64,000 nt of DNA from Cyanobium sp. CZS25K (lineage in GTDB: Bacteria; Cyanobacteriota; Cyanobacteriia; PCC-6307; Cyanobiaceae): NCBI GenBank assembly GCA_030373325.1, contig JAUCZB010000011.1, positions 1 through 64,000 on the forward strand, read 5' to 3'. Within the stretch, counting starts at the first letter, position 1, and every line of letters starts with the position of its first letter. Under the pieces are notes generated by a model. That model made no database searches and had not been told where the DNA came from. It worked only from the letters and a program-made list of their open reading frames with translations. Below, piece by piece: positions 25,850 through 54,519 of the stretch. The translations under genes and the position numbers were made by a program.

Positions 25850-27706
25850 ATGACCCTGTTCTTCGCCCAGACAGCCTGGCTGGTCCCCCTCTATCCATTG
25901 CTGGCGGCCCTGGCGTCTCTGGCCTGGTCGCCCGGCTTCATCTGGAAGACGGGACCACGCCCCTGCGGCTACCTCAACCTGACGATGGTCAGCGTGGCCT
26001 TCGCCCACAGCCTGCTGGCCCTGCTGGCGGCCAATGCCCACCCGGCATCCCTGCCGCTGCACTTCGGCTGGACCTGGCTGAACACGGCCGGCCTGTCCAT
26101 CGGCTTCGACGGTTCGATCACCCAGCCGGCCCTGATCGCCACCCTGCTGGTCACCGGGGTGCACGTGCTGGCCCAGATCTTCGCCATCGGGTATCTGGAG
26201 ATGGACTGGGGCTGGCCAAGATTCTTCGGCTCGCTCAGTTTCTTCGAGGCCGGTCTTTGTGCACTTCTGCTCACGGATTCACTGTTCTTCAGCTATGTGA
26301 TTCTGGAGCTTCTCACGCTCGGCACCTATCTCATCGTCGGCACGTGGTACAACCAGTCGCTGGTGGTGAAAGGAGCCCGGGATGCCTTCCTCACCAAGCG
26401 CATCGGTGACCTCATTCTTCTGGCCGGTCTGGTGGCGATCCTGCCGGTCACGGGCACCTGGAACTTCGGCTCCCTCGTCGAGTGGGCCGCGGCCCAGGCC
26501 CCGGGCAGCCTGCCCCTGAGCCAGCAACTGATCCTGCTGGCCCTGGTGGCCGGTCCGATGGGCAAGTGCGCCCAGATTCCCCTGCACCTCTGGCTCGATG
26601 AAGCCATGGAGGGGCCCCTTCCCTCCACGGTGCTGCGGAACTCTGTGGTGGTTGCCGGTGGGGCCTGGGTGCTGCTGAAGCTCCAGCCCATGCTGGCCCT
26701 CAGCCCCCTGGTGACCACGGTGCTGGTGGTGGTGGGCGGCACCACGGCCCTGGTCGGCGCCCTGATCGCCCTGGCCCAGATCGACATCAAGCGGGCCCTC
26801 TCCTTCCTCGCCAGCAGCTGGATGGGGCTGCTGTTCCTGGCGGTGGGGCTCGGCGATCCCTCCGTGGCGGGCCATCTGTTGCTGGTCTACCCCCTGCCGA
26901 TGGCGCTGGTGCTGATGGCGGTGGGCACGGTGATCGTCAGCAACGTCACCCAGGACCTCACCCAGCTCGGCGGGCTGTGGAGCCGCCGGCCGCTGGTGGG
27001 GCTGGCCTTCCTCACCGGGGCCGGCGGCCTGATGGCCCTGCCGCCCTTCGGCGGCTTCGCCGCCATCCGCGAGCTGCTGGAGCTCTGCTCCGCCAGTGCC
27101 CAGCCGGCCCTGCTGGGGGGCTTCGTGCTCGTCACGAATGCCCTGATGGCGGCGGGCCTGGTGCGGGTCTTCGGCCTGATCTGGGGGGGCCGACCCAGCG
27201 TGTTCACCGTGCGCTCCGCCGAGGTGCTCTGGCTGATGGTGCTGCCCACCCTGCTGCTGATGGGTGTGGTGCTGCACCTGCCGATCCTGCTGGCCCGCTT
27301 CGGGGTTTTCGCTGCCACCCCCCTGCTGGGCTGGGGTCCGGCGGCGGTGCCGCTGCTGCTCTCCACCCTGGTGGGCGGCGGCCTGTCGGCGGTGTTCTAC
27401 CTGCGGCCCCATCCCCTGGCCCAGCTGCCTGCCGCCCTGGGCGGTCTGCAGGACTGGCTGGCCCACGACATGCAGACCGAGCGCTTCTACCACCGCACCG
27501 TGGTGTGGCTGGTGGTGGCCCTGACCCGGATCAGCGCCTGGCTGGATGAACGGCTTGTGGATGGCTTCACCGGCGCCACCGGTGCCATCGCCCTCCAGGG
27601 GGCAAGGCGCCTCAGCTTCACCACCTCGGGACGCTCCCAGGCCTATGCCCTCACCGTGGTTCTGGGGGTGCTGCTGATGGCCGCCTGGCTTCTGACAGGC
27701 TTCTGA
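25850..27706 (+). CDS. ndhF4: NAD(P)H-quinone oxidoreductase subunit F, CO2-uptake type
   Basis: MTLFFAQTAWLVPLYPLLAALASLAWSPGF; GYLEMDWGWPRFFGSLSFFEAG, GPMGKCAQIPLHLWLDEAMEGPLPSTVLRNS; location near ndhD/cupB supports the F4-type paralog. Confidence 0.88.
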   Translation: MTLFFAQTAWLVPLYPLLAALASLAWSPGFIWKTGPRPCGYLNLTMVSVAFAHSLLALLAANAHPASLPLHFGWTWLNTAGLSIGFDGSITQPALIATLLVTGVHVLAQIFAIGYLEMDWGWPRFFGSLSFFEAGLCALLLTDSLFFSYVILELLTLGTYLIVGTWYNQSLVVKGARDAFLTKRIGDLILLAGLVAILPVTGTWNFGSLVEWAAAQAPGSLPLSQQLILLALVAGPMGKCAQIPLHLWLDEAMEGPLPSTVLRNSVVVAGGAWVLLKLQPMLALSPLVTTVLVVVGGTTALVGALIALAQIDIKRALSFLASSWMGLLFLAVGLGDPSVAGHLLLVYPLPMALVLMAVGTVIVSNVTQDLTQLGGLWSRRPLVGLAFLTGAGGLMALPPFGGFAAIRELLELCSASAQPALLGGFVLVTNALMAAGLVRVFGLIWGGRPSVFTVRSAEVLWLMVLPTLLLMGVVLHLPILLARFGVFAATPLLGWGPAAVPLLLSTLVGGGLSAVFYLRPHPLAQLPAALGGLQDWLAHDMQTERFYHRTVVWLVVALTRISAWLDERLVDGFTGATGAIALQGARRLSFTTSGRSQAYALTVVLGVLLMAAWLLTGF

Positions 27707-27742: not shown

Positions 27743-29332
27743 GTGGAGCGAAACCAACGCGTTCCAACCCTTCCCCCCTACGCCGAAGCGGTCGAGCATG
27801 TCGCGGAGCTACCCTGGCGGGAACGGCTGAACGGGTGGGTCACCGCCTTGGCTCGACATCCCCGAAGTAAAAACTGGTGGATCCATGGGTGGATCCATGG
27901 AGGGGGGCCAACCGGCTTGTACGCCAGGGTTCGACGGCTCACCAAATTGATTCTGCGGCCGGAAACCGTGCTCTGGCTTCTGCTGGTGGCGTTGCTTCTC
28001 CTGCCGCTGGTCATGGTCAGTGCAATCTCCAGCGCCACCCAGGCCCAGATGAAGGTGCATGCGGAGGAAGTCTCCACCCTTGCTACGGATATCCGCACGT
28101 ATTACGCCGACAATGTGATCGCCCGTCTTCAGGCTGCTGATGGCAAGGCGGTTTATTCGGAGAACTACCGAGATGTGCATGGAGGCATCCCGATTCCGGC
28201 CACCCTTTCGATTGAACTTGGAGCTCTGTTCGATAACTCTCATGGTGACGGGCGTATCACTTATGAATTCATCTCAGACTATCCCTTCGCCAAGCGGGTA
28301 GTGCGTCCCTTGGATGAATTTGAAGTCAAGGCGATTCGCGCATTCCGAGAAGATAAGAGTCGCACAACCTTCACCCAGCTCACGGGGAATGGTCTGGGAC
28401 GTTCATCCTACCGGCTGGCAACACCGGTGATCATGCGTCAATCCTGTGTCACTTGCCATAACACCCATCCTGATTCGCCTAAGCGCGACTGGAAGGTGGG
28501 CGATATCCGTGGCATACAGGAGGTAACGGTTCGCGGCCTGCTTTTGAACAGCTTCGGCAAGATCGGATGGCTTTTCGGCTATGTGTTCCTGCTCGGTGCT
28601 CTTTCAGTCGTTGCAGCTGTCGTTTTTCAACGCCAGAGCCGTCATCTCCGGATCAGCAACAGCAAGCTGAACACCGTGCATGAGCGAGAGTCAGATCTGG
28701 CTGCGCGAATGAGTGACCAGTTGAAGGAACTCTCCCTGTTCGGTACGGCTGTGGACAACTCGATCGTGGGTATTGCCATTGCCGACATGCGCAAGCATGA
28801 CGCTCCTCTTATCTATGTCAATGATGCCTTCACCAGGATTACCGGTTACACTAAGGAGTTGGCGATTGGCTTCAACTGTCGCTTTCTCCAGGGTCCTGAA
28901 ACGGATCCAGCGGAGGTGCTGCGCATCCGGCAGGCACTTGCGCAAGGGCAACCCTACAGCGGTGAGCTGATCAACTACCGCCACGATGGCAGCCGCTTCT
29001 GGAATCGCCTCACTCTCTCTCCCGTGGGTGGAACAGAAGGCAAGCCCGATTTTTTCGTTGCCAATCAGGTGGATATCACTCACCTCAAGGTTGCCCGTGG
29101 CGTACCGGTTCAGGAGCTCACCAACCTCGAGCCTGATGTGGATTCAGCTCAGGAAGCCCTGGCCAACGCACGGCGCTTCTCCGAAGCTCTCCAGCAGAAT
29201 CTCCAAATGAGTGGTCAGTGCGCCGTGGAGCATGAGGCCTTTCTACTTTCAGAGGAACAGGCGCACAAGGAGCTGGCCAAGAGACTCTCCAAGATTTCCG
29301 GGTTGATTCAGCGCTACAGCAGTGATTCATGA
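27743..29332 (+). CDS. Membrane sensor: DUF3365/Tll0287-like heme domain + LOV-type PAS domain
   Basis: TM, then ATPVIMRQSCVTCHNTHPDSPKRDWKVGDIRGIQEVTV (CxxCH, codons 28445-28459), second TM, then LIYVNDAFTRITGYTKELAIGFNCRFLQGPETD...INYRHDGSRFWNRLTLSPV (LOV motif, Cys codon 28877-28879), C-terminal coiled region. GTG start uncertain. Confidence 0.82.
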   Translation: MERNQRVPTLPPYAEAVEHVAELPWRERLNGWVTALARHPRSKNWWIHGWIHGGGPTGLYARVRRLTKLILRPETVLWLLLVALLLLPLVMVSAISSATQAQMKVHAEEVSTLATDIRTYYADNVIARLQAADGKAVYSENYRDVHGGIPIPATLSIELGALFDNSHGDGRITYEFISDYPFAKRVVRPLDEFEVKAIRAFREDKSRTTFTQLTGNGLGRSSYRLATPVIMRQSCVTCHNTHPDSPKRDWKVGDIRGIQEVTVRGLLLNSFGKIGWLFGYVFLLGALSVVAAVVFQRQSRHLRISNSKLNTVHERESDLAARMSDQLKELSLFGTAVDNSIVGIAIADMRKHDAPLIYVNDAFTRITGYTKELAIGFNCRFLQGPETDPAEVLRIRQALAQGQPYSGELINYRHDGSRFWNRLTLSPVGGTEGKPDFFVANQVDITHLKVARGVPVQELTNLEPDVDSAQEALANARRFSEALQQNLQMSGQCAVEHEAFLLSEEQAHKELAKRLSKISGLIQRYSSDS

Positions 29333-30564
29333 TGTCGCCGTTCGCTATCCCAAGGCATTCTTCAGGCTTTGTGAGGAGGTATCTGCTCGGCTGCTGGCTG
29401 GGGAGCAGTATCTTGCTTAGCTTTTTTTTGGCTCTTTACGATATCTGGGAACATCACAGGCATATTGTGAGGGAAGGGGAGCAGACGGCCCATGTCGTCA
29501 GCGCCAGTCTGCGAACGCGCTTGACCAATCAGCAACGTCAGCAGCTGCTTGTGGCCTATGGCCACACGAATCGAATGGTGCGTTTCGACCGGATGAATTG
29601 GTTATTGGTGGTGGATGGAACCGGTCGCATTGCCTACACCTCACGACCTGCATGGCGCTCCCTGAGGATCATCGACTCCACGTTCGAAACTATTACTAGC
29701 GATGATGCCAACTTTCGTGCAGTTGTGCAGTGTCTTCGTGAACGGGCAACCGACTGCATGGAGCTCAGGAGTGGTAACTGGCCTATCCGTCTTTCCGGCT
29801 TTACGCTGGTTCGCCCAGTTTCGCAACCGCCTATGGATCTTGGCCTGCCACGGCAGAATTTCCTTGTCCTTGTTAACTTTGATTCGGGCATGCTCGTCGG
29901 TGACTTCCTGCAGGATCTGCCCATTCTGATGTTGTGGGTGCTTCTAGTCTCCTCCCTTCTCTTGCTGGCGCTGTGGTACGGCACAACCCGCGGGCTGATG
30001 CCCGAGTTCCTGGAGGCGAGCAACAAAGATTCCCTCACTCAATTGATCAACCGAACGTCATTCATGGAGCAAGCCATGGACGTTCTTGCCGAGGCTGAGG
30101 AACGGCAAACAGAGTTTATTTTCGCCATCCTCGACCTCGACCACTTCAAACGGATCAATGATACCTATGGCCACGGTTGTGGGGACGCCGCCCTTGCCTC
30201 GGTGGGCAGGCTCCTTTTGACCGTCACCAGGCCTGACGACCTGGTGTGCCGCTTTGGCGGTGAGGAATTTGCCCTGCTGCTTTCCATGTCCCGCTCGGAA
30301 GGCAGCAAGGCTTTGGAGAGGCTGCGTCTGCAACTGGAGATGAACTGCCTCCACTACAATGGGTATAAGGTTCCTCTGACGGCAAGTCTTGGGGCTGCGG
30401 CTACCAAACAGTGTGGTTATAGTATCGACTTTCTGTATAATTCGGCCGACAAGGCCCTCTATGCCGCCAAGCATGCCGGCCGCAACCGTGTTGAGTGGAA
30501 TGCCGGAGAGATAACGAGCCGCTTGCCCAGTTCCGCTGCAATTTCTGCTGCTACAGGCCCCTGA
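29329..30564 (+). CDS. Membrane-bound diguanylate cyclase (GGDEF domain, GGEEF motif)
   Basis: Two TM segments flanking a periplasmic region; DSLTQLINRTSFMEQ...FAILDLDHFKRINDTYGHGCGDAAL...VCRFGGEEFALLL (GGEEF at 30256-30270); ATGA overlap with the upstream gene. Confidence 0.93.
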   Translation: MMSPFAIPRHSSGFVRRYLLGCWLGSSILLSFFLALYDIWEHHRHIVREGEQTAHVVSASLRTRLTNQQRQQLLVAYGHTNRMVRFDRMNWLLVVDGTGRIAYTSRPAWRSLRIIDSTFETITSDDANFRAVVQCLRERATDCMELRSGNWPIRLSGFTLVRPVSQPPMDLGLPRQNFLVLVNFDSGMLVGDFLQDLPILMLWVLLVSSLLLLALWYGTTRGLMPEFLEASNKDSLTQLINRTSFMEQAMDVLAEAEERQTEFIFAILDLDHFKRINDTYGHGCGDAALASVGRLLLTVTRPDDLVCRFGGEEFALLLSMSRSEGSKALERLRLQLEMNCLHYNGYKVPLTASLGAAATKQCGYSIDFLYNSADKALYAAKHAGRNRVEWNAGEITSRLPSSAAISAATGP

Positions 30565-30568
30565 GTCG

Positions 30569-32521
30569 ATGCAACCTCCCAGAATCCCCGATGATGAAGA
30601 GGCTCGCTTGCTGGAGCTGCGCAGTTACGGTGTACTCGATACTGAACAGGATCCCAGATTTGATGATATCAGTGAACTGACCCGTTATGTTGCCGGCACG
30701 GAGATCGGTATTGTCAGCCTGGTGGACAGCAACCGGCAGTGGTTCAAGAGCTGTGTGGGGGCGCCGCTGAGCCAACGACAAACTCCGCGGGACATCTCCT
30801 TCTGCGGCCACACCATCTTGCAGCGCCAGCCACTGATAATTAATGATACCCATGAGGATGACCGGTTTGCCGATAATCCGCTTGTTGTTGGGGTTCCCCA
30901 TGTCCGTTTTTATGCTGGCTTCCCCCTGATCAGCGCCAATGGCTTCACGGTGGGCAGTCTTTGTGCGATCAGCCGCCAGCCTCATCATCTCAGCGACCAG
31001 CAGATCAAGGCTCTAGGGCGACTGGCATTGCTCACGTTGCAGCAACTGGAATATCTGCGTAATTCTGCTCTCCTGGCTGCCAGTCATCATGGAACAGAAG
31101 TGGAACGTCTGCGCAGCCTTGCCAGCGAGCGACTCACCTCGCTTGAGCGACTGATCAGTCGTGATCAGCTGGTTCAGATGCTGGATCTGATGTTTGGCAT
31201 GGAACTCGCATCTCCTTTCTCTTTATTTCGTTGCTACTTCCGCGACTACGAACGAGTCAACTCGACCCTGGGTGGGGTTGTGGCGGAAGAGTACATGAAT
31301 GAAGCAGCCCGCAGGGTGTTGGCCGCCGTTCCTCGCGTCGCTTCGGTGGCACGCTTTGCCGATGCCGAATTGGTGGTGCTTCTTCCCTTTACTGTGGAGG
31401 AGAGGGACGCACAGAAGGTGGCTGATCGCATCCTTGCATTTGTTAACCACATCTATCGTTGTGGCAATCAAGCACTGTCGATGGCCCTTTCCATTGGCGT
31501 TGCCATCCATTCCTTGAACTATGAGAATTCGGAGGCGATTCTTGCTGACACCAGCATGGCGGTGCGTATGGCTCGCCGATCAAGTGCCAGCTCGGTTCGT
31601 TTCATCGACGCTGAATCACGCGTCGCCGCCCGTGAGAGCTATCGACTGGAATCTGAGATACGGGAGGCTGTGGCCGCCAAGGAGATGGAGCCTTTCCTGC
31701 AGCCGATCGTGGATCTCACCACAGGTGAGCCTGTTGGGTTTGAAGCCCTTGCGCGCTGGCACCGACATGACGGGGTCGTGATGCCCGATACCTTTATTCC
31801 GCTCGCAATGGAATGTGGCATCACGGGAGATCTCGACCTCATCATTATCGAGAAGGCCTTGGCGGCCTTGCCGCTGCTCGCCCTGCCCGTGCCGCAAAGG
31901 CAGATGTTGATCAGCCTGAACCTCTCCGGAATTCTATTGGAGGATGAGGAGATGCGCAGGCGTCTGCTTGCCCTGATCGACGAGAACCCGTGCCCCCCAG
32001 GCTGGCAGGTGCAGGTGGAGTTGGTGGAGGATATTTTCCAGGATTCCACCCGGGCATTCAGCATCTTTCTCGATGCCCTCGTGAGCCGGAAGGTGCGCAT
32101 TGCCATCGACGACTTCGGCACTGGTTACTCCTCACTGGCTCGCTTGATCTCCCTGCCGATTCAGGCCGTGAAGGTGGATCGTGCTTTTGTGATCAAGCTG
32201 GACGAAGGCGAGGATTCTTCGCGAACCTTCCTACGGACCATTTTCACGATGCTGGCGGATCTTGGACTGGAGATCACAGCTGAGGGTGTGGAAACCCTTA
32301 AGCAGCGCGAGTGGTTGCTGGCCAATGGCGCCGACAAGGCACAGGGATACCTGTTCGCTCAACCGATGCCGCTCAGCGATGCGATTGCCTACCTGCAGAA
32401 CCTGGACTATCGGCCGCGGGCCTTGTCCGTGGAGCCTGGTCGCATCCAGGCCCTAAGACGCCGGCGACTGCGCGCTGCGTTTCGCATGCCCTTTCTGGGC
32501 GGCCGTCGCAGCAGCGACTGA
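30569..32521 (+). CDS. GAF - degenerate GGDEF - EAL protein (predicted c-di-GMP phosphodiesterase)
   Basis: GAF: EIGIVSLVDSNRQWFKSCVGAPLSQRQTPRDISFCGHTIL; degenerate GGDEF: RFADAELVVLLPF; EAL: GFEALARW, SLNLSG, QVELVEDIF, AIDDFGTGYSSLARL, VKVDRAFV, TAEGVETLKQ. Confidence 0.92.
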   Translation: MQPPRIPDDEEARLLELRSYGVLDTEQDPRFDDISELTRYVAGTEIGIVSLVDSNRQWFKSCVGAPLSQRQTPRDISFCGHTILQRQPLIINDTHEDDRFADNPLVVGVPHVRFYAGFPLISANGFTVGSLCAISRQPHHLSDQQIKALGRLALLTLQQLEYLRNSALLAASHHGTEVERLRSLASERLTSLERLISRDQLVQMLDLMFGMELASPFSLFRCYFRDYERVNSTLGGVVAEEYMNEAARRVLAAVPRVASVARFADAELVVLLPFTVEERDAQKVADRILAFVNHIYRCGNQALSMALSIGVAIHSLNYENSEAILADTSMAVRMARRSSASSVRFIDAESRVAARESYRLESEIREAVAAKEMEPFLQPIVDLTTGEPVGFEALARWHRHDGVVMPDTFIPLAMECGITGDLDLIIIEKALAALPLLALPVPQRQMLISLNLSGILLEDEEMRRRLLALIDENPCPPGWQVQVELVEDIFQDSTRAFSIFLDALVSRKVRIAIDDFGTGYSSLARLISLPIQAVKVDRAFVIKLDEGEDSSRTFLRTIFTMLADLGLEITAEGVETLKQREWLLANGADKAQGYLFAQPMPLSDAIAYLQNLDYRPRALSVEPGRIQALRRRRLRAAFRMPFLGGRRSSD

Positions 32522-32729: not shown

Positions 32730-34277
32730 ATGCCCTCTTTCGTCCTGGTCCTGCTTCTGGTTTTCCCCTTGTTCGGCATGGGCCTCCTTCAGCTCGTGCC
32801 CGCCGATCGCCTTCGATGGGTGCAACGGCTTGCCGCTTCCAGCGCTGCCGGGCCCCTGGTGCTGGCCCTGGGCTGCTGGCGCCTGCCTCCCGCTGATCTC
32901 CACCTGAGCTGGCTGCCGAAGCTTGGGCTTCGCCTCGACCTGGGTCTGGATGGTCTTTCCCTGCCCCTGGTGGTGCTCACGGCTCTGATCACCGTGTTCG
33001 CCATCCTCTCGGCGCCCGCGGATCAGAGCCGTCCGCGGCTGTTCTTCGCCCTGATGCTCGCCACCAACCTCGGCGTGGTGGGTGGATTGCTGGCCCGCAA
33101 TGCCCTGCTGTTCCTTCTGGCTTTCGAACTGGTGCTCATTCCGATCACCCTGCTGGTGGCCATCTGGGGCGGAGAGAAGCGGGCAGGAGCCGCGGTGCGT
33201 TTCCTGCTCTACAGCGCCGTCTCCGGCCTGGCCCTGCTGGCGGCGGTGCTGGCTTTCGCCTGGTTCAATCCGGCCGGTCCGGCCTTCGGGTTTGATGAAC
33301 TCCACAACGCCCAGTTCCCGCCGGCCGCGCGGCGCTGGATCCTGGCCCTGCTTCTGCTCGCCTTCGGCCTGAAGCTGCCGGTCGTGCCCCTGCATGGCTG
33401 GCAGCCCTTCACCTACAGCCAGGCCCCCACCCCGGTGGTCATGCTGCTGGCAGGCGCCGTCTCCAAGCTCGGGGCCTACGGCCTGCTGCGCTTCGGCGTG
33501 GGCTTCCTGCCGGACATCTGGGCCGCCTGGTCCCCGTGGATCGCCGCCGCCGGCGCCATCAGCGCGGTGTATGGAGCCCTCAACGCCATCGCCCAGAGCG
33601 ACATCCGCCGCCTGATGGCGTTCAGTTCCCTCGGCCACATGGGTCTGCTGGTGCTGGGGCTCTCCGCTGCCACTCCCCTCAGTCTGCAGGGGGCCGTGGC
33701 CCAGATGCTGGCCCACGGCATGATCGTGGCCCTGCTGTTCGCCTGCGTGGGGCTGATCGAGCGCAAGACCGGCACCACCGCCATCCCCGAGCTTTCGGGC
33801 CTCATGAATCCGTTGCGGGGCCTGCCCTTCACCATGGCCATGCTGCTGCTGGCCCTGATGGCGGCCGCCGGCATCCCGGGCCTGGCTGGTTTCCCTGCCG
33901 AGCTGCTGGTGTTCGAAGGCAGCTGGAGCACGTTTCCGCGGGCCACGCTGGTGAGCCTGATCGCCTCGGGCTTCACCGCCGTCTATGCGATCCGCCTGTT
34001 CAACAGGGTGGGCTTCGGCCGTCTCGACAACGACCGTGCCGACTGGTCGTCCACCAGCTGGGGCGAGCGGGCCCCGGCCATGGCCCTTACCCTGCTGGTG
34101 ATCGCCGCTGGTCTGTGGCCCACGGCCCTCACGGGCTGGAGCGAGGCCGAATCCACGGATCTGGCCCTGCGCTCCCAGCCGTTCCTCAGCCGTACGGGCG
34201 CTCAGACCCCCGCCTCCGCCGGCTCCTCCCTCGTCGCTGTCACCCTCCCTTCCGCCTCGGAGCTGCGCACGTCATGA
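32730..34277 (+). CDS. ndhD4: NADH dehydrogenase subunit D, CO2-uptake type
   Basis: LGLRLDLGLDGLSLPLVVLTALITVFAILSA, FGLKLPVVPLHGWQPFTYSQAPTPVVMLLAGAVSKLGAYGLLRF; followed by cupB. Confidence 0.9.
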   Translation: MPSFVLVLLLVFPLFGMGLLQLVPADRLRWVQRLAASSAAGPLVLALGCWRLPPADLHLSWLPKLGLRLDLGLDGLSLPLVVLTALITVFAILSAPADQSRPRLFFALMLATNLGVVGGLLARNALLFLLAFELVLIPITLLVAIWGGEKRAGAAVRFLLYSAVSGLALLAAVLAFAWFNPAGPAFGFDELHNAQFPPAARRWILALLLLAFGLKLPVVPLHGWQPFTYSQAPTPVVMLLAGAVSKLGAYGLLRFGVGFLPDIWAAWSPWIAAAGAISAVYGALNAIAQSDIRRLMAFSSLGHMGLLVLGLSAATPLSLQGAVAQMLAHGMIVALLFACVGLIERKTGTTAIPELSGLMNPLRGLPFTMAMLLLALMAAAGIPGLAGFPAELLVFEGSWSTFPRATLVSLIASGFTAVYAIRLFNRVGFGRLDNDRADWSSTSWGERAPAMALTLLVIAAGLWPTALTGWSEAESTDLALRSQPFLSRTGAQTPASAGSSLVAVTLPSASELRTS

Positions 34278-35584
34278 CCTCCCCCATCGCCACGGCCCCC
34301 GAGCCCCTCACCGAGCCCCTGATCCCGCCCTCCACCCATCGCTATGCCGATGTGATCCATCGGCTGGAGGCCGGCGGCTCGATGCTGCCGGACACGCCGG
34401 AGAACCTGATGCAGATCATCGGCATCTACAAGGCCTATGCCGTGCCGATGGACTTCTACTGGCGCGACCTGCTCTACATCGCCGAGCGGGTGTTCCTCGA
34501 CCCCCTGCCGGCCTTCAAGTACTTCCCCTCCCAGGAGTACCTCGATCGGCCCAATTCCTACGCCGGGGATGACTCGAAGCTGCGTATCTGGCGTGGTACC
34601 GCCACCGCCCATCCGGAACTGCTGGCGTTCATGGCCAAGGGGGAAACCACCAACATGCCGAAGCTCCTCCATCACCTCTGGCACGACCGGATCAACATGG
34701 AGTTCGCCGAGGCCTGCATGGATGCCATGTTCTGGCACCAGGGCATGGGCGGCCGCTTCTACGACTACCTGGAATGCGACGCCTACAAGGCGAATGCCGA
34801 CAAGGCGATCAAGGCCTACTTCAAGGGCAATCCCCTGATGCTCGGGCTGTATGCGCTGTTCCCGGAGATGTTCCTGGAGCAGGTGCGCAAGATGAGCTAC
34901 TACGCCAATCTCGGTCTGTTCTGGGAAGTGATGGCGCCGGTCTTCTTCGAGATGAGCGACATCTACGACGAGGGCGGCTTCAAGGGCGTCCCCGATGCCA
35001 TGGATTTCCTGGTCAATGGCATCTTCGCCGTGGCCGGCCGGCCCATCTATCACCATGTGTTCATCGGCGGGGAATGTTTCGAGATCATTCCCAAATCGGA
35101 GGGTTTCACCTGGCTCTACGAGGCGGCCCTTCCCTACGTGGAGGCGGTCTTCTACCGCACCGCCCCCTTCCGTGGCACCAAGAGCTACAACGCCCAGGCC
35201 GGTCAGGTGCCCTCCGAGCAGGCCGATTTCCATTACGGCATCCTCTATGCGGATGTGTTCCCGGTGGGTTCGGCCGGCATCCCGCCCACCCTGCTGATGC
35301 AGGACATGCTGCACTTCCTGCCGCCCTACCTCACCGAGCTCTACGCGAAGCACAAACGCGGCGAAGGCGACATTCTCAACCAGCTGGGGGTCACCTTCCA
35401 GCGCTCCATGTACAACGTCACCTCGGCGGTGATCCAGGCCCTGCGCTGCGCCCTGCTCTACCCCCTCGATGACGCCGACCCCGAGCACCTGATGGCCAAC
35501 CGGCGCTTCTTCGAAGCCCAGATGGACCGCTTCCTGCGGCCCGAGGCCCGCCTGCCCCAGATCCAGACCCAGGACTACCGCTAG
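34274..35584 (+). CDS. cupB: CO2 hydration protein (ChpX/CupB family)
   Basis: LPDTPENLMQIIGIYKAYAVPMDFYWRDLLYIAERVFLDPLPAFKYF...GGRFYDYLECDAYKANADKAIKAYFKGNPLMLGLYALFPEMFLEQVRKMSYYANLGLFWEVMAP; ATGA overlap with ndhD4. Confidence 0.93.
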   Translation: MTSPIATAPEPLTEPLIPPSTHRYADVIHRLEAGGSMLPDTPENLMQIIGIYKAYAVPMDFYWRDLLYIAERVFLDPLPAFKYFPSQEYLDRPNSYAGDDSKLRIWRGTATAHPELLAFMAKGETTNMPKLLHHLWHDRINMEFAEACMDAMFWHQGMGGRFYDYLECDAYKANADKAIKAYFKGNPLMLGLYALFPEMFLEQVRKMSYYANLGLFWEVMAPVFFEMSDIYDEGGFKGVPDAMDFLVNGIFAVAGRPIYHHVFIGGECFEIIPKSEGFTWLYEAALPYVEAVFYRTAPFRGTKSYNAQAGQVPSEQADFHYGILYADVFPVGSAGIPPTLLMQDMLHFLPPYLTELYAKHKRGEGDILNQLGVTFQRSMYNVTSAVIQALRCALLYPLDDADPEHLMANRRFFEAQMDRFLRPEARLPQIQTQDYR

Positions 35585-35594
35585 GAGATCACCC

Positions 35595-35996
35595 ATGGCC
35601 AACATCATCGAAACCGCCAAAGGTGCCGGGGTCTTCGGCACCCTGCTCACCGCCGTCGAGGTGGCCGGGCTCACCGGGGCCCTCGAGAGCCCCGGCCCCT
35701 TCACCGTCTTCGCCCCCGTCGACGACGCCTTCGCCGCCCTGCCCCCCGGCTGCGTTCAGACCCTGGTGGACAATCCGCCCCAGCTGGCGCGCATCCTCAA
35801 GTTCCACGTGCTGAGCGGCGCCCACCCCCGCAGCGCCCTGGTGGAGCAGCCGGAATGGGAAAGCCTGGAGGGGGCACCGGTGGCGATCCGCCGGGCGGAG
35901 CCCTTCGAGGTCAAGAACGCCACGGTCGTTTCCGCCGACATCGTCTGTGACAACGGCATCGTGCACGTGATCGACCGGGTGATCCTGCCCGGATGA
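35595..35996 (+). CDS. Fasciclin (FAS1) domain protein
   Basis: LTAVEVAGLTGALESPGPFTVFAPVDDAFAALPPG...LKFHVLSG...NATVVSADIVCDNGIVHVIDRVILP. Confidence 0.95.
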   Translation: MANIIETAKGAGVFGTLLTAVEVAGLTGALESPGPFTVFAPVDDAFAALPPGCVQTLVDNPPQLARILKFHVLSGAHPRSALVEQPEWESLEGAPVAIRRAEPFEVKNATVVSADIVCDNGIVHVIDRVILPG

Positions 35997-51031: not shown

Positions 51032-51910
51032 ATGGCCACCCTTCTCGACGGCCGCCGACTGGCGGCGGAGATCGAAAGGCGCCTGAGTGCTGTGATCAGC
51101 GAGGGCCTGCCGGAGGCGGGTCGGGCTCCCGGTCTGGCGGTGCTGCGGGTGGGGGATGATCCCGCCAGCGGCGTGTATGTGGCCAATAAGGAAAAGGCCT
51201 GTGGCCGCGTGGGCATCAGCAGCCATGGCGGTCATCTGGCGGCGGACACCCCGGCCGAGGAGGTGCTGGCAGTGATCCGGCGCCTCAATGCCGACCCGAC
51301 GGTTGACGGGATCCTGTTGCAGCTGCCCCTGCCGGCGGGCCTGGACGAGGCACCACTGCTGGCGGCGATCGACCCGGACAAGGATGCCGATGGTCTGCAC
51401 ACCCTCAACCTGGGCCGGCTGCTGAAGGGGGAGCGGGGCCCGCGCAGCTGCACGCCGGCCGGGGTGATGGCGCTGCTGCACAGCGCCGACGTGCCGATCT
51501 CCGGGGCCCAGGCGGTGGTGGTGGGCCGCAGCATCCTGGTGGGCAAGCCGATGGCCCTGATGCTCCAGGCGGCTGATGCCACGGTCACCGTGGCCCATTC
51601 CCGCACCCACCACCTGAGCGAGGTGACCCGCCAGGCCGATCTGCTGGTGGTGGCGGCCGGCCGTCCCCAGCTGATCGGCGCGGTGCATGTCAAACCGGGT
51701 GCCGTGGTGGTGGATGTGGGTATCCACCGGCTGGATGGCAAACTCTGCGGTGACGTGGATTACGAGACGGTCGAGCCCCTGGCGGCCGCCATCACACCAG
51801 TGCCGGGCGGGGTGGGGCCGATGACCGTGGCCATGCTGCTGGTGAACACGGTTGTGGCCTGGTGCCATCGCCACGGGCTGGAGCATCCCCTAGCCGATCT
51901 GCTGCCCTGA
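51032..51910 (+). CDS. folD: Bifunctional methylenetetrahydrofolate dehydrogenase/cyclohydrolase
   Basis: [96 protein letters not shown]. Confidence 0.97.
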
Positions 51911-54519
51911 GGATCGGAACGGCAAGGTGAAAGGGACCTGGTCCTTGATGAACGACACGAAGGCCGCCTGCGGCAGGGGCTTGCTCAGCAGATAGCCCTG
52001 GATCTCATCACAGCCGAGCCTGCGCAGCAGGCCGAGCTGTTCGGGGGTTTCCACCCCTTCGGCGATCGTGCGCATGCCCATCGAACGGGCCAGGTTGATG
52101 ATCGTCAGCACGATCGCGCGATCGTCTTCGTTGACCGCAAGATCACGGATGAACGATTGATCAATCTTGAGCCGATGGGCTCGGATCCGCTTCAGGTAGC
52201 TCAAGGAAGAATAGCCGGTGCCGAAGTCATCGATAGCCAGGCGGATTCCATGGACGTAGAGCTGCTCCAGCTGGGCCAGGGCCTTCTCCGGATCCGCCAG
52301 CGTCACCGACTCGCTGAGCTCCAACTCCAATCGGTCGGGCGGGAACGCTTCAGCTTGAAGCTGTTCGATCACCATGAGGACAAGATCCCCACGCTCGAAC
52401 TGCGTCGCGGAGATGTTGACCGAGACGGTCAACGGTGTCGATCCATCGTCCGTCCAGGAGTGGGCATCCTGCAGGGCGCAGCACATCACCCACTGGCTGA
52501 TCGGGAAGATCAGGCCACAGCCTTCGGCCAGGGGAATGAATTCAGCCGGCGATACCGGACCCAGATCGGGATGGGTCCAGCGGACCAGGGCTTCGGCTCC
52601 GAAGATGTGATGGCTGCTGAGCTCGAGCTGGGGTTGGTACTCGAGGCTGAATTCTCCACGTTGGATGGCCTGGTGCAGGGCGTTGGTGAGCCGCAGGGAG
52701 CGGGCGCTGCGTTCCTGAACAATGGGCGTGAAGAACTGGAGGTCATTGCGCCCGGCAAGCTTGACCTGGTGCAGCCCCGTGTTGGCGTTACTCATCAACT
52801 GCTCCAGGGTGGTGCCATCCCCGGGGAAGTGCGCGATGCCCACCGACGCTGTGAGGAACAGGGGATCGGCCCCGAGCCTCTACGGCTGGGCCACCGCCTG
52901 CCGCAACCGTTCCGCCATGGCGCGGGTGATGCTGGCGTCCGAGTCGGGCATCAGCACCACGAATTCGTCGCCACCGGTGTGAGACAGGCTGTCGGCATCC
53001 CCCAGGATCGGCTTCAGACGCTTGGCCACCTCCAGCAGCACCCGGTCGCCCATGTCATGTCATGGCCAAGGTTCTCGTTGACAAGCTTGAAGTTGTCGAG
53101 ATCGCGGAACAACTGCGCCAGGGGCAGATGGGATCGCTTGGCCAGGTCCAGACCGTTCTGGATCCGATCGTGCAGCAGGGTACGGTTGGCCAGGCCGGTG
53201 AGGGGATCGAAGTAGGACAGCCGCTCGATCTGTTCCTGCGCGAATCTGCGCTCGGTGATGTCCCGTGTCACCCCATGGAGCTCCACTATGTTGGTGTGGG
53301 GATTGAGCACCAGCTTGGTCACCGATTCGGTCCAGATCATGGATCCGTCCTTGGCCAGGAGTTCGTTCTCTTCAACCGTCACCATGTCGCCGTTGCGCAA
53401 CCCGGCGTTGAACGCGACCAACTGCTGGTCGATCTGCCGCTTCCGATGTTCCGCAACGTCCACCCGGAAGGCCTTCTCGAAAGGCTCGGCCATCACTTCC
53501 TCGGCCGTGAACCCACGCAGTCGCTGCACGGAAGGGCTCACATGGAAATAGCGTAAAGTCCTGGGATCGAGGGACCAGATCACTTCATGGGTGGATTCAG
53601 TGATCTCCCGGAACTTCTCCTCACTGGCTTTGATCGCATCCTCGAGCGCCTCTTGGCTGGCCTCCAGACTGAAGCGATCAAAGGCGGCATCGATGGCGCC
53701 GGCCATGTCCAGCAGCAACTGCTGGCTTCTGGCATCGAAACTGTCGGATTCCCCGGCATAGATCGCCAGGCCGCCGATCACAACGCCGTGGCGATGCAGG
53801 GGCAGAACCGCCGCGGCCCCCCAGCCAAAGGTGCTGGCCTGTTCATGCCAGGGCACGAGCGAGGGATCCTGCATGAAGTCATGGATCCAGAAGGGGTGGT
53901 TCTCCCGCAGGGCGATCGCAAAGGCCCCCTGGGCTTTGCGATCCTCCGGATCCAGGCTGATCACCAGGTCCTCCAGATTGGCACTGTCGTTCCCGAACCA
54001 GGCCACCGGCCTGAACTGGTGGGTGTGCGGTTCGATCATCCCAGCCCAGGCCAATCGCATCTCCCCGGAGGTGACCGCCAGGCGGCAGATCTCTCCGAGC
54101 ATCTCCTCACTGTTCCTGACCCTGGTCACCACCTTGTTGGCGGCACTCAAGGTGGCGTAGATCCGAATCAGACGAAGAAGTCGTTCTTCGTCCCGCTTGT
54201 GCTCAGTGATCTCCCGACACAGCATCAGATAGCGGGGAGGATCCGCCTCGAAAGGTTCCCGCCGGGCGATCGAGAGCTCGAACCAGGCCGACCCGCCGGG
54301 GCGCGGCACCTCGATCTGCCGCCGGTGGGGGCTGCGGTCCACCGCTGCTGCCGCCGCCTCAAGGGCCTGCCTCATCGTGGCGGCGACCGCCGGGGAGAGA
54401 ACATCCGCCAGATGGGGGGGCTGTCGGTGTTCTCCGGCAGATGGAACAGCAGCTCCAGTGGCCAGGATCACGGCCAGTACAAGGGCGGTGGGCGGCCAGG
54501 ACCAGCCGGTCATGCCCAT
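51890..54519 (-). pseudogene. PAS-GAF-PAS-GGDEF-EAL protein, disrupted by a 5-bp insertion and an in-frame stop
   Basis: ORF 54519-53014 ends SYFDPLTGLANRTLLHDRIQ...FKLVNENLGHDM-TW(frameshift); after removing the extra 5 bases at about 53054-53064 the frame reads GDRVLLEVAKRLKPILGDADSLSHTGGDEFVVLMPDSDASITRAMAERLRQAVAQP-TAG(52880-52882)-RLGADPLFLTASVGIAHFPGDG then an intact EAL domain. Confidence 0.85.

Follow-up and report, generated by a model that had tools for sequence, protein, structure and literature searches.

A putative heme-Cache/LOV sensor belongs to a mobile c-di-GMP cassette lying in the NDH-1MS operon of a Cyanobium genome

The extracytoplasmic Cache domains that carry a covalent heme were first described as a sensor family in 2026 (PMC12889525), in a paper that does not mention their combination with a photoreceptor and in whose text the word LOV is absent. 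In that work, a membrane-anchored member without the axial Cys showed slow NO release and formed no stable O2 complex, and the stand-alone members looked redox-like. LOV photoreceptors include the short LOV proteins and the LOV-histidine kinases. Blue light acts on c-di-GMP through LOV-activated diguanylate cyclases and LOV-GGDEF-EAL proteins, in which, according to the accessible part of PMC10396304, LOV domain and enzyme are in one chain. A photoreceptor that works with a separate diguanylate cyclase has been described in Synechocystis, where Cph2 acts with Slr1143, and a review from 2023 on second messengers in the CO2-concentrating mechanism (CCM), in its available passages, places c-di-GMP only in light sensing, motility, aggregation and differentiation (PMC10117731).

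The window analyzed here is a 64,000-nucleotide stretch of the Cyanobium sp. CZS25K genome (contig JAUCZB010000011.1, positions 1–64,000), and its features lie on the forward strand unless stated otherwise. The sensor gene (27743–29332), which we term CacheLOV, encodes 529 amino acids when read from GTG 27743. This start codon is uncertain, as it is the longest option, and TTG 27848 and TTG 27917 are candidates because the homology of the relatives starts only near residue 62. The product consists of a TM helix, a Tll0287-like domain with a CVTCH motif, a second TM helix, a helical linker, a LOV domain and a two-helix tail. The first-pass annotation had proposed a CxxCH domain and a LOV domain in one polypeptide without an enzymatic output, and both points hold: Pfam matches both PF11845 and PAS_9, and the PDB matches agree. 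The 79-residue C-terminal tail (29093–29329), modeled as two long helices and containing no known domain, has no match above the cut-off in Pfam and none in NCBIfam, and an output domain was not found. As judged from these matches, each domain truly belongs to its family. The sensor is thus built of known domains, in a combination and a gene setting that we did not find described in the literature searched.

Approximately 400 genomes were searched at the order level and then approximately 400 at the family level. The sensor family (alignment A1) comprises 18 copies in 15 of the ~400 Cyanobiaceae genomes, all within this one picocyanobacterial family. By GTDB names, the carriers are Cyanobium sp. 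FGCU6, FGCU52, CV13-4-11, T1B-Tous and FACHB-13342, Synechococcus sp. GreenBA-s, Vulcanococcus limneticus and several MAGs. All 18 copies share the domain order and both cysteine motifs, which shows that the architecture is not due to chance. No homologue of the full architecture was found on plasmids, and viral contigs yielded a single relative that matches the N-terminal part only.

The extracytoplasmic domain (residues 99–263; 28037–28531) matches PF11845, the Tll0287-like family formerly named DUF3365 and now sCache_heme, with an E value of 1.4e-21 (77.8 bits against a cut-off of 24.1). Its CVTCH motif for covalent c-type heme (residues 235–239; 28445–28459) places the Cys pair at residues 235 and 238, and the corresponding positions C178, C181 and H182 of A1 are invariant in the 18 copies. 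CxxCH is also kept in all 67 wider relatives, whose aligned heme-Cache domains contain only these two Cys residues, and the N-terminal half of the window protein contains no third Cys beyond the pair. It therefore differs from Tll0287 proper, a stand-alone member of the redox type, which has an axial Cys ligand in addition to CxxCH. In the N-terminal model (pLDDT 79), CxxCH sits on a short helix (137–145) between two strands (124–134 and 159–168), a layout that is shared with the sCache_heme sensors (PMC12889525; PDB code: 5B82), as is the predicted place between two TM helices. In that family, the CxxCH helix is inserted between strands 3 and 4 of the Cache fold. Foldseek found no significant Cache match for this model (best E 0.04), so the placement of the heme rests on the sequence family and the local layout. 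When the N-terminal domain was searched singly against the PDB with phmmer, only weak chance matches appeared, and a profile search of the PDB reached Tll0287 (5B82) at E 0.2 only. On this footing, the domain should bind a covalent c-type heme on the extracytoplasmic side. It resembles the signaling cluster of PMC12889525, whose NO-binding P. azotoformans protein also lacks the axial Cys. The signal had been given as redox or gas; as the domain has no counterpart of the Tll0287 axial Cys, the findings of PMC12889525 narrow this and favor NO or redox over O2 as the heme signal. In contrast to the described sCache_heme sensors, the window protein continues into a LOV domain and carries no enzyme.

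The LOV domain (residues 333–450; 28739–29092) is predicted to be cytoplasmic and contains the motif GFNCRFLQGPETD. PAS_9 matches residues 351–446 (E 4.8e-20), and the top PDB sequence matches are LOV domains (9vf7, 1.3e-28). Foldseek aligns the model with many LOV structures (E 4e-14 to 2e-11), with TM-scores by target of 0.8–0.9 for isolated LOV domains, which identifies a LOV fold. The adduct cysteine, Cys379 in GFNCRFLQ, is encoded at 28877–28879, exactly the codon that had been predicted, and is invariant in the 18 copies. The Asn, Asn and Gln that contact FMN (in NYR, WN and NQ; N354, N364 and Q385 of A1) are also invariant. The ‘IRxAL’ Arg is not retained in the second clade of the cassette, and we count this against our reading. 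The domain thus shares NCRFLQ, the flavin contacts, the fold and the flanking helices with the short LOV proteins and LOV-histidine kinases. Unlike them, it is membrane-bound and lies behind a heme sensor domain, and its output is presumably in separate proteins.

Outside the cyanobacterial group, heme-Cache and LOV domains with both cysteine motifs occur together in two Burkholderiales, Rubrivivax (L053) and Macromonas (L054). Their N-terminal module is 40–48% identical to that of the window protein, but a kinase output is fused to it: a histidine kinase in Rubrivivax (HATPase by Pfam) and, on visual reading of the translation, a kinase-like C-terminus in Macromonas. Because the Burkholderiales versions carry a fused histidine kinase, the module would normally drive an output, and the cyanobacterial version is an output-less form of it. 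In another wider relative (L038), the heme-Cache domain is joined to a class III cyclase. Two betaproteobacterial loci (L055:6996–8168 and L056:8941–10113) encode a heme-Cache domain with a Cys-less LOV-like PAS domain and no output, and a gene for a separate hybrid histidine kinase follows.

Two c-di-GMP genes follow the sensor gene. The first (29329–30564) encodes a membrane diguanylate cyclase (DGC) of 411 amino acids (PF00990, E 2.9e-41), whose GGEEF active site is intact here and in all 17 copies; the second (30569–32521) encodes a 650-residue phosphodiesterase composed of a GAF domain (PF01590), a degenerate GGDEF domain and an EAL domain (PF00563, E 5.8e-56). The catalytic residues (EAL, N, E, DD, K, E and Q) are conserved in 15 of 15 phosphodiesterases, with EVL in place of EAL in the second clade, and the GGDEF domain is degenerate in every copy. 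The stop codon of the sensor gene and the start codon of the DGC gene overlap by 4 nt (ATGA), in line with the translational coupling that the first-pass annotation had claimed, and another 4 nt separate the DGC stop codon from the start of the EAL gene. The order sensor-DGC-EAL, with genes overlapping or nearly so, is found in 16 of the 18 copies; one copy (G136c) has neither the tail nor the EAL gene. In the DGC, the extracytoplasmic loop between the TM helices contains two invariant residues, Cys135 and Cys143 (29731–29757; alignment A3). They are predicted to lie on the same side of the membrane as the heme and could form a redox disulfide.

We consider it probable that the sensor combines heme and FMN inputs and signals in trans, through its tail, to the DGC and/or the EAL protein of this mobile three-gene cassette. 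The protein would span the membrane twice, with a covalent c-type heme on the extracytoplasmic Cache domain and FMN in the cytoplasmic LOV domain; NO or redox would be the likely input of the former and blue light that of the latter. Both cofactor signals may converge on the helices that flank the LOV domain, and the enzyme-less tail, the proposed contact with the partner enzyme, may then relay them by protein contact to the DGC and/or the GAF-EAL phosphodiesterase, which would set the c-di-GMP level. The earlier statement that the sensor must act through these two enzymes is made likely by the conserved cassette, which falls short of proving the ‘must’. The GAF domain of the phosphodiesterase counts against our reading, as this enzyme may answer another signal. 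Such a system would share the path from blue light to c-di-GMP with the LOV-GGDEF-EAL proteins but divide it over three genes instead of one chain. Cph2 and Slr1143 offer a parallel in the separate cyclase and differ in the type of photoreceptor and in having no heme. Cph2 also bears GGDEF and EAL domains of its own.

Beyond the first-pass annotation, which had considered the sensor and its neighbors, the comparison reveals the Burkholderiales relatives described above, in which a histidine kinase is fused to the module, the mobility of the cassette and its place inside the NDH-1MS operon. The three window genes have a GC3 of 0.64–0.65, compared with a median of 0.88–0.89 for the other genes, and the same offset is found at seven further loci (L022, L027, L028, L031, L032, L033 and L035). 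The cassette of Synechococcus GreenBA-s (G136) shares 93.2% DNA identity over 4.7 kb with that of Cyanobium CV13-4-11 (G187), whereas the SbtA encoded beside it is only 72% identical between the two; SbtA of G136 is 97% identical to that of another genome (G143), and cupA places G136 and G187 apart. The GC3 offset, the identity of the cassette relative to that of SbtA and the separation by cupA together establish that the cassette is laterally transferred. The block shared by G136 and G187 measures 5.95 kb and starts inside HAM1, a conserved native neighbor of sbtA.

In the window, the cassette is flanked by an ndhF3-type gene directly upstream (25850–27706; PF00361/PF00662, assigned also by the operon order in relatives), with a gap of 36 nt, and by an ndhD3-type gene (32730–34277; PF00361), which begins 208 nt downstream. 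The CO2 hydration protein gene cupA/chpY (34274–35584; PF10216, E 2.6e-157) and the fasciclin-domain gene cupS (35595–35996; PF02469, E 7.9e-33) follow. An NdhF/NdhD pair with ChpXY and the fasciclin protein CupS identifies the NDH-1MS operon and distinguishes it from the NDH-1MS' set; the same genome has another ChpXY beside its carboxysome genes, accompanied by separate NdhF/D-like genes. The gene order and families are thus those of ndhF3-ndhD3-cupA-cupS, but a foreign 5-kb c-di-GMP cassette separates ndhF3 from ndhD3, which are contiguous at three loci where the cassette sits elsewhere (L023, L026 and L029). A scan for promoters and terminators detected no more sites than in shuffled sequences, with a convincing terminator in neither gap around the cassette.

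Across the clade of the window copy, ndhF3 and ndhD3 flank the cassette in the window, G030 and G150; it lies just upstream of ndhF3 in G283; between NDH-1MS and the HAM1-sbtA-carboxysome genes in G136; beside HAM1-sbtA in G187; no more than 2 kb downstream of cupS in G282 and G227; and ~12 kb downstream of cupS in G296. It is unlinked to CCM genes in G144 and G156. G144 yielded no second (CupA-type) ChpXY and no SbtA; the genes upstream of its cassette, one of them a PilZ gene, seem to correspond to those in G283, whose cassette stands ahead of NDH-1MS. The G313 copy, on a 3-kb contig, could not be placed and was left out of the count. Hence 8 of the 11 placeable copies lie within ~2 kb of CCM genes, in four positions. 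By a rough estimate, the CCM clusters with 2-kb margins occupy ~40 kb of a 3-Mb genome, so this adjacency is beyond chance even when only four groups are counted.

Other GGDEF genes also occur at CCM loci, in G000, G143, G150 and G030. A protein with an ODP (di-iron beta-lactamase-like) domain and a GGDEF domain is encoded ~2 kb from the sbtA-carboxysome genes of the genome studied here (L119:11203–12930), and another adjoins ndhF3 in G143 (L126:1–1484). A dCache-GGDEF gene in G150 (L022:16431–17906) and a CHASE-PAS-GGDEF gene in G030 (L021:55–2040) lie directly beside cupS. Among the GGDEF matches listed for 12 related cassette-free genomes, none is less than 10 kb from ChpXY, the nearest being ~17 kb away. 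A general clustering of GGDEF genes at CCM loci was considered and plays no part in our reading. In G030, ndhF3 itself (L021:10565–12444) is split by a stop codon into two ORFs of the same frame, as a pseudogene or through a sequencing error. The reverse strand of the window contains a second GGDEF-EAL-like gene (51890–53214), in which the GGDEF match is divided over two frames with an in-frame TAG; an EAL-type match (51938–53032) belongs to the same gene, a possible pseudogene.

With regard to downstream receptors, 23 of 24 genomes encode PilZ proteins. A divergent PilZ gene lies 1–3 kb upstream of the cassette in G283 (L127:3468–4013) and in G144 (L027:7069–7662) and is a candidate c-di-GMP receptor. 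ComFB, which is reported to modulate SyCRP1 (PMC13249358), a regulator of some CCM genes in Synechocystis, was rejected as a receptor here, with no instance in 24 genomes.

What the genomic position means is less clear than the sensor itself. The cassette may be an ordinary light/redox c-di-GMP module for motility, aggregation or biofilm, brought beside CO2 genes by homologous recombination and without functional meaning there. This account has an even chance of being right, and it is compatible with the sensing mechanism proposed above. Recombination in conserved flanks can also yield CCM adjacency, because the G136/G187 block starts inside HAM1, just as flank-driven exchange would give. The cassettes of the second clade (L032–L036) lie away from CCM genes and that of G156 is unlinked; ComFB, a possible link to CCM genes through SyCRP1 (PMC13249358), is missing; and motility, aggregation and differentiation are the cyanobacterial c-di-GMP outputs given in the available part of PMC10117731. 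However, the positions inside ndhF3/ndhD3, upstream of ndhF3, in the HAM1-NDH-1MS gap or beside sbtA, and downstream of cupS do not represent one recombination site, and the window cassette is co-directional within the operon, where neither gap holds a convincing terminator.

It is also conceivable, though unlikely, that the sensor acts independently of the cassette enzymes, for instance as a short LOV protein whose helical tail signals to an unlinked partner. Output-less short LOV proteins have been described in Pseudomonas and Rhodobacter, and they figure among the structural neighbors of the sensor. In contrast, the DGC gene adjoins the sensor gene in all 17 copies for which downstream DNA is present, and the trees of the three genes agree: each recovers the well-supported groups {G000, G030, G150}, {G136a, G187}, {G136b, G143} and {G125, G296b, G160}, which indicates that sensor, DGC and EAL genes travel together. 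That one cofactor site is a relic, with heme alone or flavin alone in use, is quite improbable: the LOV side can decay, as five Burkholderiales relatives (L055–L058 and L111) have lost the LOV Cys (RPLRFLHGP, CGLRLLQGP) and retained CxxCH, yet CxxCH and NCRFL are both kept in 18 of 18 cyanobacterial copies, whose identity to the window copy falls to ~50%.

The trans-signaling reading is the one we retain for the sensor. The least certain step is that the output of the cassette bears on CO2 uptake; we regard as doubtful, but worth stating, the idea that the cassette is wired into the CCM clusters of freshwater picocyanobacteria, such that light color and extracytoplasmic NO or redox set CO2 uptake via c-di-GMP. 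To our knowledge, no earlier c-di-GMP input into an NDH-1MS operon has been reported, and this would be the first if the idea is true. With its predicted covalent heme and photoactive flavin on opposite sides of the membrane, the sensor would offer a ready system for studying the integration of two cofactor signals, and the recurrent place of the cassette by CO2-uptake and carboxysome genes permits a direct test of c-di-GMP action on the CCM.
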